DNA of 64,000 bases, taken from the NCBI RefSeq assembly GCF_035987325.1, contig NZ_CP108488.1, forward strand, positions 4,402,001-4,466,000. The letters are read 5' to 3'. Below the pieces are notes generated by a model. The model was not told the origin of the DNA. It saw only the letters and a list, made by a program, of their open reading frames with translations, and made no database searches. A program made the translations under genes and the position numbers. The stretch is from Streptomyces sp. NBC_01244 (GTDB lineage Bacteria > Actinomycetota > Actinomycetes > Streptomycetales > Streptomycetaceae). The stretch's first letter is position 1; each line of letters starts with the position of its first letter. Shown piece after piece: positions 3,901 to 11,084 of this stretch.

Positions 3901-5163
3901 CTAAGGCCCATCCACCGGCGGAGCCACCCGTGCGAAGTGGCGGGCCGTCGGTACCAGGGCGGCCGCCGCCGGTACGAGGAAGCACGCGGCCGCGCACACG
4001 CCGAGGACGGGCGTGACGCCGAAGGCGTCGATGGCCGGGGCGATCAGGGCGAGGCCGACCGGGGCCAGGCCGTAGGAGACGAGGAAGTCCAGCGAGGAGA
4101 CGCGGGCCAGCCGGTCCGGGGCGACTTCGCGCTGGGTGGCGGTGAACCAGGGCACGTTGAACAGCTCGATCCCGATCCCGGCGACGGCGTAGGCGGCCAC
4201 GACCACCCACGGATGCACGGGCAGCATCAGGCTCAGCGGGGCGAATCCGTACGCCGCCAGCCCCGCGAAGGCGGCCCAGCCCTGTGAGCGCGGCCGCCGG
4301 CGGGCGATGACGAGGGCTCCGCCGAGGGCGCCGACTATGTAGGCGGTCATGGCCGCCGCGAGCACCCATTCGCTGTCGTAGCGGTCCCGGCTGATCAGGG
4401 GCAGGGCGACGCTGGTGGCGGAGTAGCCGAGGGCGATGACCGCGACGAGGGCGGCCAGTCCGGCGAGGAACCAGGGGTGGCGGCGTGCCTCCCGTACGCC
4501 GTCCACGAACTCGGCGCGGAAACTCGCGCGCGGCGCCGGGACGGCACCGGCGGCCGTGCCCTGCCCCTTGCCCGGGACGAGCGCGGCGACCAGCCAGAGC
4601 AGGCCGATGCCGAGCAGCAGGGTCCAGACGTCGAGGAAGGCCGCGAGCAGCGCGGTCAGAGCGGGTCCGGCGAGCGTGGAACCCCGTACGGCCATGGTCA
4701 TGGCGGCATTGGCCTGCTGGCGGCGTCCCGGGTCGACGGTCTCGGCGGTGAGCGCCTGGAACGCCGGCCGGCAGGCGCCCTGTCCGGCTCCGGCGAGGGC
4801 TGCGGCGGCCGTCATCAGCAGGAGCGAGCGGCCCAGTCCGGCCGCGAGGAGGGGGGCCGCGACCGCCGCCGCCAGGGCCGACCAGAGGACGACCGCACGG
4901 CGGGAGTGCCGGTCGGCCAGGACGCCGCCGACGGTGACGGCGGCGAGGAATCCGGCCGTGCGCGCGGCGAGGACCAGGCCGAGGCCGGCGGCGCTCAGGT
5001 CGCGGTGGAGGACGGCGAGCCCGAGGACGAAGGGCAGGGCCCAGGTCGCGAGTCCGGAGGCGGTGGTGCCCGCCCACAGGCGCAGGAACGGAACGTCCCG
5101 GAGGACTGAACGCGCGGACGGGGCAATGGTTTTGGGCGCCGGAGGCGCGGGCGTGCTCGCCAC
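3901..5163 (-). CDS. MFS transporter, probable metallophore exporter (EntS-like)
   Basis: About 420-residue major facilitator protein with roughly 12 hydrophobic segments and the inter-helix 2-3 loop GGVLADRHSRR, the MFS motif A. The overall pattern (SVLRDVPFLRLWAGTTASGLATW) is that of the EntS/DHA3 exporters that often sit in siderophore clusters. The frame opens at 5208, but a GTG at 5163 follows AAGGAG by ten bases and gives a normal N-terminus. It is transcribed divergently from a FecBCD-type uptake operon, and a Zur/Fur-like palindrome lies in the shared promoter region, so it probably exports the ligand that the operon recaptures. Substrate is inferred from context only. Confidence 0.85.
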   Translation of the reverse strand: MASTPAPPAPKTIAPSARSVLRDVPFLRLWAGTTASGLATWALPFVLGLAVLHRDLSAAGLGLVLAARTAGFLAAVTVGGVLADRHSRRAVVLWSALAAAVAAPLLAAGLGRSLLLMTAAAALAGAGQGACRPAFQALTAETVDPGRRQQANAAMTMAVRGSTLAGPALTALLAAFLDVWTLLLGIGLLWLVAALVPGKGQGTAAGAVPAPRASFRAEFVDGVREARRHPWFLAGLAALVAVIALGYSATSVALPLISRDRYDSEWVLAAAMTAYIVGALGGALVIARRRPRSQGWAAFAGLAAYGFAPLSLMLPVHPWVVVAAYAVAGIGIELFNVPWFTATQREVAPDRLARVSSLDFLVSYGLAPVGLALIAPAIDAFGVTPVLGVCAAACFLVPAAAALVPTARHFARVAPPVDGP

Positions 5164-5223
5164 GGTGTGGTTGCTCCTTGGAGGGCGGGCGGGGGGTCCA
5201 CGAACCACCCCGGGGTTTCTTAC

Positions 5224-5243
5224 TGAAAATGAATACCATTACA
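5224..5243. promoter_or_regulatory. Candidate Zur (Fur-family) operator
   Basis: TGAAAATGAATACCATTACA is an imperfect inverted repeat containing AATG...CATT. Its first 15 bases match the actinobacterial Zur box TGAAAATGATTTTCA at 12 positions; it does not resemble the DmdR iron box (TTAGGTTAGGCTCACCTAA). It lies about 60 bases upstream of the exporter start and about 95 upstream of the binding-protein start, so one repressor dimer could control both arms. Confidence 0.6.
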
Positions 5244-9110: not shown

Positions 9111-10159
9111 TTCCCGGCGCCACCGCGCGCCCGGTCCTCTCCGGCGCCGGGCAGGCCCCCTGCCACCACGGCGAGATCCTCCAGGGCGTCTTCCTCGACG
9201 ACACCGGGCGCCGGTGCGCGGGACTGGTCACCCTCCCCATGGCGGGCCCCGGCAGCAGCGCCGCCTTCGTCCGCCGCCCCGGCGCGGTGCCGGAGGCGCT
9301 GACCGTCGTACCCGCCGACCGCACGAAGGCGGCGCGGGCCGCCGCCCTCGCGGTCGCCGAGTGCGCGCGGCGGACCGGTCAGCCGCCCTGCGGCGGGGAG
9401 TTGCGGCTCACCGGCGAGATACCGGTGGGCCTGGGCATGGGCAGCTCCAGCAGCGACGTCATCGCAGCCGTGCGCGCGGTCGCGGACTCGTACGGGCTGC
9501 AGCTGGACCCCGCGACGGTCGCCGGGCTGGCCGTACGCGCCGAACTGGCCTCCGATCCGCTGATGCTGTCCGGCCGCCCCGTGCTGTTCGCCCAGCGGGA
9601 GGGCCGGGTCCTGGAGGTCCTCGGCCCGGCCCTGCCGCCGCTGGTCGTGGTGGGCTGCGCCCTCGGTGGGGGCGCACCCGTCGACACCCTGTCCCTGCCG
9701 GTGGCCGACGTGGCCGACGTGGACCGCAGCGACGTACGGGCCTACGAGCGGCTGCGCGCGCTGCTGCGCCGAGCCGTGGCCACCGGCGACGCGCAGCTGC
9801 TCGGCGCGGTCGCCACCGCCAGCGCGAGGCGCGGCCAACGGGCGCTCCGCCACCCGGAGTTCGACGCGCTGACCGCCCTCGCCCGCCGGGCCGGGGCGGT
9901 CGGCGTGCAGATCGCGCACAGCGGCGCGGTGGCGGGCGTGCTCTTCGATCCGGCCGCCCCCGGGCTGCGCCACCGCGTCCGCGGCTGCCTGCACGCCCTG
10001 GACGCCCACGGCATCCCCGCCACCCACACCTTCACGACCGGCGCCACCACCGCCCCCAGCCCCAAGGAGAGCCCTCACCATGGACCAGCACATCGCGGAG
10101 TCGATCGGCCGGCCGGACCTGATACGCCTCGACGACCGGCTCGTCTGCCTGCGCTTTGA
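9107..10159 (+). CDS. GHMP kinase, PduX-like (L-threonine/L-serine kinase type)
   Basis: 350 residues by the full frame. The start QAPCHHGEILQG and the phosphate loop PVGLGMGSSSSD (about 104-115) are those of the GHMP superfamily, closest to PduX, the L-threonine kinase of cobalamin synthesis. The ATG overlaps the previous stop (ATGA). No cobalamin genes are nearby; instead a cysteine-synthase-like PLP enzyme follows. This suggests it makes an O-phospho-amino acid as activated substrate, as SbnI does for SbnA in staphyloferrin B synthesis. The last 26 residues lie in the reading shadow of the next gene, an unusually long 80-base overlap, so the 3' end may have shifted. Substrate not determinable here. 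Confidence 0.82.
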   Translation: MIPGATARPVLSGAGQAPCHHGEILQGVFLDDTGRRCAGLVTLPMAGPGSSAAFVRRPGAVPEALTVVPADRTKAARAAALAVAECARRTGQPPCGGELRLTGEIPVGLGMGSSSSDVIAAVRAVADSYGLQLDPATVAGLAVRAELASDPLMLSGRPVLFAQREGRVLEVLGPALPPLVVVGCALGGGAPVDTLSLPVADVADVDRSDVRAYERLRALLRRAVATGDAQLLGAVATASARRGQRALRHPEFDALTALARRAGAVGVQIAHSGAVAGVLFDPAAPGLRHRVRGCLHALDAHGIPATHTFTTGATTAPSPKESPHHGPAHRGVDRPAGPDTPRRPARLPAL

Positions 10160-11084
10160 AACGATGAAGGTGGTCTCCGCCCTAGCTGCGGTGCGCCACC
10201 TGCTCGACACCGGAGTCGTGCGCCGCGGGGACACCCTGTTGGACAGCTCCAGCGGCATCTACGCGTACGCCCTGGCCCTGACCTGTCACCGGTACGGCCT
10301 GCGCTGCCACATCGTCGGCTCGGCCACCGTGGACCACACGCTGCGGACCCAACTGGCCGTCCTCGGGGCGACGCTGGAGCAGATGGAGCCGTGCAGCGAC
10401 CTGAAACTCGACCAGAAGCGGCGCGTCGAGCGGATCCACGAGATCCTCGCCGCACGCCCCGAGTACCACTGGATGCGCCAGTACCACGACGACGTCCACT
10501 ACCTCGGCTACCGCGCGATCGCCGACCGGATCCGCGAGGCCACCGGCACGGCGGACGGGCTCACCGTCGTCGGCGGGGTCGGATCGGGCGCCTCCACCGG
10601 CGCCCTCGCGCGCTACCTCCGCGAGAGCGCCGCCGACCCTTCGGACGTCGAACTCGTCGGCGTCCAGCCGTACGGCAGCGTCACCTTCGGCTCCGAACAC
10701 GTCACCGACCCCGAGATGATCATCGCCGGGATCGGCAGCTCCATCCCCTTCGGGAACGTCTCGCACGAGCTGTACGACACCCTGCACTGGGTCTCCTTCG
10801 ACGCGGCCCTCGCCGGCAGCGTCGACCTGCTGCGCCGGCACGCGGTCTTCGCCGGGCTGTCGACCGGTGCCGGCTACCTCGCGGCGCGCCACGAGCGCGA
10901 GCGCTCACCCCACCGCACGGTCCTCTTCATCGCCCCGGACACCGGCCACCGCTACGTCGACACCGTCTACGCAAGGCACCGCGAGGCCGCCCCGATCGCG
11001 GACCTCGCCCCGCGCGAGGTGACGGACCGGAGCGAGCTGACCCTGCCGTGGTCCCGGATGCGCTGGAACCGCGCCGCTGCGTGA
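10080..11084 (+). CDS. Cysteine-synthase/SbnA-like PLP-dependent enzyme
   Basis: 334 residues of fold-type II PLP family. The probable Schiff-base lysine is K30 (CLRFETMKVVSAL), the PLP-phosphate loop is GGVGSGASTGA near 162-172, and PDTGHRY near 282 is the C-terminal cofactor contact. The substrate loop usually read as SGNTG is SGIYAYALA (about 59-67), so the conserved Asn that binds the PLP ring hydroxyl is absent; the K motif also lacks the usual NPGGSxKDR. It is therefore a divergent member, perhaps using an O-phospho-amino acid from the adjacent kinase to make a diamino acid or similar metal ligand. A Shine-Dalgarno AAGGAG lies 10 bases upstream. Last gene of the operon. Confidence 0.78.
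   Translation: MDQHIAESIGRPDLIRLDDRLVCLRFETMKVVSALAAVRHLLDTGVVRRGDTLLDSSSGIYAYALALTCHRYGLRCHIVGSATVDHTLRTQLAVLGATLEQMEPCSDLKLDQKRRVERIHEILAARPEYHWMRQYHDDVHYLGYRAIADRIREATGTADGLTVVGGVGSGASTGALARYLRESAADPSDVELVGVQPYGSVTFGSEHVTDPEMIIAGIGSSIPFGNVSHELYDTLHWVSFDAALAGSVDLLRRHAVFAGLSTGAGYLAARHERERSPHRTVLFIAPDTGHRYVDTVYARHREAAPIADLAPREVTDRSELTLPWSRMRWNRAAA

Follow-up and report, generated by a model that had tools for sequence, protein, structure and literature searches.

A cluster of seven genes in Streptomyces sp. NBC_01244 probably forms a Zur-repressed unit that makes, exports and re-imports a small metal ligand by means of three enzymes. The cluster lies at positions 3901-11084 of the 64,000-nucleotide stretch of DNA that was analyzed (contig NZ_CP108488.1, positions 4,402,001 to 4,466,000; hereafter the window), in a host genome of 10.0 Mb. 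Here, a gene for a major facilitator superfamily (MFS) exporter is divergent from a six-gene run, encoding FecB, FecCD, FecE, a DUF364 protein, a GHMP kinase and a pyridoxal phosphate (PLP) enzyme resembling SbnA. An earlier reading of the sequence (the original prediction) proposed that a small amino-acid-derived ligand is made, exported and recaptured at this locus without a non-ribosomal peptide synthetase (NRPS) or an NRPS-independent siderophore (NIS) synthetase, and this is supported computationally by the coupling of the genes, the Zur-type site in the promoter and the SbnA likeness of the PLP enzyme. We have good confidence that the locus is a Zur-repressed metallophore unit; we infer the metal, the substrates, the product and the DUF364 reaction from comparison with other systems.

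The predicted operator is a 15-mer, TGAAAATGAATACCA, at 5224-5238 in the divergent promoter between the MFS and FecB genes; TTACA comes directly after it. The 15-mer is three mismatches from TGAAAATGATTTTCA, which we take to be the actinobacterial Zur box consensus; matches with at most three mismatches are expected 0.06 times per window, and at least one was seen in 5 of 100 shuffles. As a Zur score we counted how many of the 11 informative positions were matched in tGaNNatSatNNtCa, the Zur motif from chromatin immunoprecipitation (ChIP-chip) in S. coelicolor as given in excerpts of PMC5472717. TGAAAATGAATACCA matched 9 of the 11 and has the 7-1-7 arrangement of a Zur box. Upstream of the MFS gene a score of at least 9 was found in 71 of 78 loci, as compared to 20 of 1560 dinucleotide shuffles, and in 66 of 73 when duplicate promoter stretches were removed; examples of the operator variants in relatives are TGAAAATGATTGCCA, TGAAAACGATAACCA, TGAAAACGATTGTCA and TGAAAATGATTGTCA. 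The host genome was also scanned with a degenerate box pattern built from relatives of the window site, with up to three mismatches allowed. This gave 8 matches in 10 Mb, as compared to 2 with a reversed control: the window site, which the pattern matches by construction; a pair of sites upstream of znuA; one site in a ribosomal divergon, matched on both strands; and three others, one being the ribosome-binding region before DUF364, probably by chance. The divergon is, in our reading of its RpsN-, RpmB- and RpmE-like translations, a zinc-sparing ribosomal set, and the sites at znuA and at these alternative ribosomal-protein genes serve as same-genome controls for the Zur-type site. Taken together, Zur-type control of the divergent genes is well supported, with the Zur site itself predicted from sequence. 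The box that the original prediction placed between these genes is present and conserved, but it extends over 5224-5238 rather than 5224-5243; its occurrence in related promoters, proposed there as a check, is borne out by the conserved score and the two controls. In one relative, S. violaceorubidus (L117), a Zur-like site at 5280-5310 overlaps the FecCD start codon, an arrangement also reported for S. coelicolor SCO0476 and a possible link to published Zur data.

The gene set is conserved among relatives. In a congeneric sample of 199 genomes, own included, 85 had a match to DUF364, of which 33 were close (65-100% identity), 51 were of a second type (38-44%) and 2 were weak only, one genome having both main types. 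Phylum-wide, a match was found in 5 of 296 genomes, four of them of the same genus. When each species was represented by a single genome, the scan yielded 583 stretches, of which 513 code for a relative; our counts use the best 80, which are mostly from Streptomyces with additional loci from Amycolatopsis, Prauserella, Actinophytocola, Actinopolymorpha, Kitasatospora and one record labelled Streptosporangium. The genes for DUF364 and the PLP enzyme occurred together in 40 of 40 congeneric loci, which came from 20 of the 32 remaining close genomes and from 20 of the 51 with the second type, and in 77 of the best 80 species-scan loci; the three misses (L102, L128 and L139) are stretches that end too early to show the partner. 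Neighbors were counted by identity thresholds in the 66 species-scan loci with enough flank. The PLP gene and an MFS exporter were present in all 66 (the exporter in two types, 56 and 10), and the kinase and FecBCD in 59 each, the importer being of type 1 in 40 loci, type 2 in 20 and both in one. The coupling of DUF364, PLP enzyme and exporter is thus well supported, and the check suggested in the original prediction, that the DUF364-kinase-PLP trio should be conserved with a transporter, comes out positive for both exporter and importer. Optional genes are a methyltransferase-like gene (28 of the 66) and a PhyH oxygenase gene (4). No Pfam family matched the methyltransferase-like protein; a protein in the same place on one plasmid is annotated as 'methyltransferase'. 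In one branch the PhyH-type gene lies between PLP and DUF364 (L073 7500-8340; L166 8015-8926) and is likely a tailoring step. Plasmid-borne copies of the locus (L190-L192) were also found, in Tsukamurella tyrosinosolvens (L190, plasmid 26), S. melanogenes and Streptomyces sp. SGAir0924. Since it is plasmid-borne, Mycobacteriales included, the gene set may move between genera.

All seven genes were found by Pfam and NCBIfam in the families and at the coordinates first proposed. The putative metallophore exporter (3901-5163, minus strand; Pfam MFS_1, 106.9 bits) has a longest open frame of 3901-5208, and its probable start, chosen by eye, is the GTG at 5163 after AAGGAG. It had been called EntS-like; it does belong to the MFS, but with 18 bits against the EntS model (cut-off 324) that label is too specific. 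The plus-strand run starts with a FecB-type substrate-binding protein (SBP; 5337-6368; Peripla_BP_2, 96.2 bits, with a lipobox recognized by eye), a FecCD-type permease (6358-7449; FecCD, 292 bits) and a FecE-type ATPase (7446-8240; ABC_tran, 117 bits). It continues with the DUF364 protein, a putative zincophore-biosynthesis enzyme (8241-9110; PF04016, 43.7 bits, cut-off 23), the GHMP kinase, a putative Ser/Thr kinase for a phospho-amino acid (9107-10159; GHMP_N 50.9 and GHMP_C 28.1 bits), and the fold-type II, SbnA-like PLP enzyme, putatively for beta-replacement (10080-11084; PALP, 115.9 bits). The kinase is PduX-like by the names of some homologues, with no PduX model among its NCBIfam matches; one of the named homologues is from S. 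venezuelae. From FecB to PLP all genes touch or overlap, kinase and PLP by 80 bases (10080-10159). FecE has no stop before DUF364, and a single unbroken frame (7446-9110) spans both genes, a read-through seen in 1 of 60 loci tested, that of the window alone. Because an AGGA before the DUF364 ATG at 8241 is retained in both aligned relatives, FecE and DUF364 are likely translated separately despite the common frame. As originally stated, no NRPS or NIS synthetase was found: Condensation, IucA_IucC and SbnB-type OCD (ornithine cyclodeaminase; PF02423) domains were absent from the window, as compared to 39, 4 and 3 elsewhere in the genome.

When a profile of the PLP enzyme was compared with solved structures, SbnA was the best match (158 bits) and CmnB the second (142). 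Residues Lys30, Arg115 and Tyr135 align with Lys47, Arg132 and Tyr152 of SbnA and were invariant in 18 of 18 aligned sequences. Selection of O-phosphoserine in SbnA has been attributed to Arg132, Tyr152 and Ser185 (PMC12414870, in part), and in our own reading of the alignment Ala and Phe take the positions of Arg132 and Tyr152 in the cysteine synthase 2isq. The DUF364 protein passed the curated cut-off of PF04016 and has the two-domain enolase-N plus Rossmann fold of that family.

The more distant DUF364 proteins (about 40% identity) are encoded in another conserved operon, which we analyzed as set A (L035-L054, plus L193 and L194). In L048, annotated in detail (6863-15900), it contains genes for an ATP-grasp protein like L-amino-acid ligases, DUF364, an SbnA-like PLP enzyme, a protein like dipeptide epimerases (DgcA), an MFS protein, a methyltransferase and a NikA/Opp-type SBP. 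Clustering of called genes showed that the operon recurs in the remaining loci, and the gene order is equal on plasmids of S. angustmyceticus and Rhodococcus (L193 and L194). Upstream of the ATP-grasp gene the Zur score was at least 9 in 17 of 20 loci versus 17 of 400 shuffles, the score in L049 coming from a different-looking site. The PLP enzyme of L048 gave 240 bits with the SbnA equivalog model TIGR03945, also under the cut-off, and the SBP5 importer of set A 64.8 bits with the CntA model, which has a cut-off of 800. The DUF364-PLP pair therefore recurs with Zur-like sites, with other partners and with another importer, and the set A operon is perhaps a further zincophore cluster.

On balance, we favor a biosynthetic role of DUF364 over handling of metal or ligand in the cytosol. 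According to the crystal-structure paper (PMC2954201), the protein is predicted to act as an enzyme in siderophore-like synthesis, with conserved pocket residues predicted to be catalytic and with metal-transport genes as neighbors, listed for iron, tungstate, vanadium and molybdate. Alternatively, DUF364 could be a cytosolic protein that releases the metal or degrades the ligand, with kinase and PLP enzyme alone making it. This we find doubtful, even though the family is named 'putative heavy-metal chelation' in Pfam, the protein shares its reading frame with the importer ATPase in the window, a related PLP enzyme occurs without DUF364 (set C, below), and a single synthase is enough for aspergillomarasmine A (AMA) according to excerpts of PMC8319579. 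Besides the predicted catalytic pocket, the gene order of set A speaks against such a handler, as in L048, L193 and L194 the DUF364 gene is flanked immediately by the ATP-grasp and PLP genes, several genes from the importer.

As a contrast we analyzed PLP genes without DUF364 (set C, L169-L189), that is 20 hand-picked places, 4 of them in genomes with DUF364 elsewhere, and one plasmid locus. With matches taken at 1e-10, these 21 clusters had an ATP-grasp ligase in 20, a methyltransferase in 15, a ferric-reductase-like gene in 12, a GHMP kinase in 7 (in L189 identified by Pfam) and DUF364 in none. A Zur score of at least 10 within 6 kb of the PLP gene was found in 0 of 21 set C loci, as compared to 8 of 20 in set A, 11 of 20 in the congeneric set B, 36 of 77 in the species scan and 0 of 42 random stretches. 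These results suggest that DUF364 is associated with the Zur-controlled branch. The metallophore role originally given to the kinase/PLP pair is supported beside DUF364 with a Zur site, but the PLP enzyme is found in other clusters as well, a third of them with the kinase. In set C, L189 also encodes a FhuF_C protein, and L173 has an iron-box-like site at position 10768, three mismatches from the consensus; this branch may serve iron.

These iron-related features of set C fit a second alternative, in which the metallophore is Zur-controlled but meant for another or several metals (iron, cobalt, nickel or copper), zinc being the signal only. Transporters of the FecB/FecCD/FecE type mostly carry iron chelates or corrinoids, and the DUF364 neighbors listed above are in line with this as well. 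We nevertheless consider it unlikely, as the Zur motif is conserved and no iron box was found within five mismatches of the consensus in any of the 21 set B loci, window included, or in any of the 20 of set A.

Several observations weigh against the proposed zincophore unit. The PLP enzyme itself, and the kinase together with it, are not zinc-specific, because both occur in set C, where DUF364 and strong Zur sites are missing. The 78 promoters are not independent, as the same 15-mer recurs in 18 of them, and 5 pairs each represent one stretch present in both the congeneric set and the species scan; the window site scores 9 rather than 11, and 7 of the 78 promoters score 8 or less (five at 8, two at 7). 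In the Tsukamurella and Rhodococcus loci the Zur score within 6 kb of the PLP gene is only 9, a value also reached in 16 of 42 random stretches. The PLP enzyme missed the cut-off of TIGR03945 (132.4 bits, cut-off 349.95), and the SbnA likeness seen in the original prediction holds at the profile level and for two of the three residues that select O-phosphoserine, but the position of Ser185 is Gly in this family. A kinase above the identity threshold was absent in 7 of the 66 flanked loci, FecBCD in 7 and both in 6. All seven kinase-less loci have the second MFS exporter type. Of the loci without FecBCD, L156 (1232), L163 (2059), L168 (1223) and L071 (16248) have an 11/11 Zur site just upstream of a nearby Opp/Nik-type SBP gene; L161, L164 and L166 lack such an SBP also, in the stretch examined. 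Finally, FecB is closest to the F420-0 and EitA models rather than to a zinc SBP: its best NCBIfam matches were an F420-0 ATP-binding cassette (ABC) transporter SBP (157 bits, cut-off 392) and EitA (116 bits, cut-off 640), both under the cut-off.

The transporter matches could instead point to salvage of a corrinoid or F420 precursor, in which a PduX-like kinase makes threonine phosphate and FecBCD imports a corrinoid or F420-0. The top models of FecB, FecCD and FecE were those of the F420-0 ABC transporter (157, 303 and 290 bits), with corrinoid-transporter models among the next, and two kinase homologues (P0029 and P0101) bear the PduX-type name 'involved in propanediol utilization'. Such a role is very improbable. 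The cut-offs of the F420-0 and Btu/corrinoid models were missed, and the PLP protein is of fold-type II and SbnA-like, whereas CobD of cobamide synthesis has an aminotransferase fold. Window positions 1-16000 gave no Rfam match at the gathering score and thus no cobalamin riboswitch, and neither the Zur-type promoter nor the exporter present in all flanked loci fits with salvage. We give hardly any credence to a cysteine or amino-acid supply operon under zinc control that lies by chance beside siderophore-import genes: a small number of homologues bear the name cysteine synthase, but the gene association is kept across genera with the exporter always present, and two positions have SbnA-type rather than cysteine-synthase residues.

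Returning to the three-enzyme locus, which is probably a complete zincophore unit working without a template, we lean towards chemistry that joins a phospho-amino acid to an amino acid. At zinc shortage Zur would leave the divergent promoter, and the GHMP kinase would phosphorylate L-serine (or L-threonine) on its side-chain hydroxyl. The SbnA-like enzyme could then eliminate the phosphate to give an aminoacrylate (or aminocrotonate), to which a second amino acid would be added through its amino group, yielding an N-(2-amino-2-carboxyethyl)-amino acid; possibly, this addition is repeated, as in AMA synthase. DUF364 would modify or condense the product of the PLP enzyme to the final ligand, the MFS protein would export it, and FecBCD would recover the metal complex. 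By analogy, we infer that the product may be a Zur-repressed aminocarboxylate zincophore like ethylenediamine disuccinate (EDDS) or aspergillomarasmine. Whether DUF364 and the SbnA-like enzyme form the core of an unrecognized, widespread class of actinobacterial Zur-controlled zincophores without NRPS or NIS is, in our judgment, evenly balanced. If so, the kinase/FecBCD branch and the ATP-grasp/dipeptide epimerase/Opp-Nik branch would make different ligands, the optional methyltransferase-like or PhyH genes would be tailoring genes, and the protein described here would give the DUF364 family its first defined reaction.

Only a small number of zincophores have been described, and a three-enzyme route of this kind would escape a search based on NRPS or opine signatures. 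Coelibactin of S. coelicolor is likewise the product of a Zur-repressed zincophore cluster (PMC5472717, in part), but it is made by an NRPS (PMC3430247, in part) and the window has no Condensation domain. Staphylopine and pseudopaline (Cnt) are small zincophores with dedicated import (excerpts of PMC8000910), but among the Pfam matches of the window there is no nicotianamine-synthase-like or opine-dehydrogenase family. In staphyloferrin B synthesis, an SbnA-type beta-replacement enzyme has its own serine kinase, SbnI (PMC12414870, in part), in line with the profile match to SbnA. There, the product goes via 2,3-diaminopropionic acid (Dap) to an NIS synthetase under Fur instead of Zur, and the window has no SbnB-type or IucA/IucC domain. 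Because the TIGR03945 cut-off was missed and SbnB is absent from the window, we did not file the locus as an SbnA system. The DUF364 proteins with crystal structures, Dhaf4260 (3L5O) and PH1506 (3NPG), are distant, with 14 and 19% identity to the window protein, whose Asp189 aligns with a Glu of 3NPG that is presumed to be the strictly conserved Glu148 of the family. To our knowledge, no function has been proven for either of them.

Two known chelators are similar in logic. AMA synthase is PLP-dependent. Excerpts of PMC8319579 describe how this one synthase joins O-phosphoserine to aspartate, which gives a zinc chelator that inhibits metallo-beta-lactamases through zinc sequestration; the system is fungal, no Zur, DUF364 or dedicated kinase is mentioned in those excerpts, and the likeness drawn here is one of description. 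[S,S]-EDDS of Amycolatopsis japonicum (aes) is a Zur-controlled complexing agent with aspartate as precursor, and its genes came from a scan for Zur sites (PMC13379591 and PMC9252823, in part). The window locus may thus work like these two systems, but it is assignable to neither of them. The aes locus is said in the original prediction to include an SbnA-like gene, and we know of no DUF364 or GHMP kinase in it. If our reading is right, the locus adds a class of chelators related to EDDS and aspergillomarasmine, and gives DUF364, a family with two crystal structures, a testable reaction.

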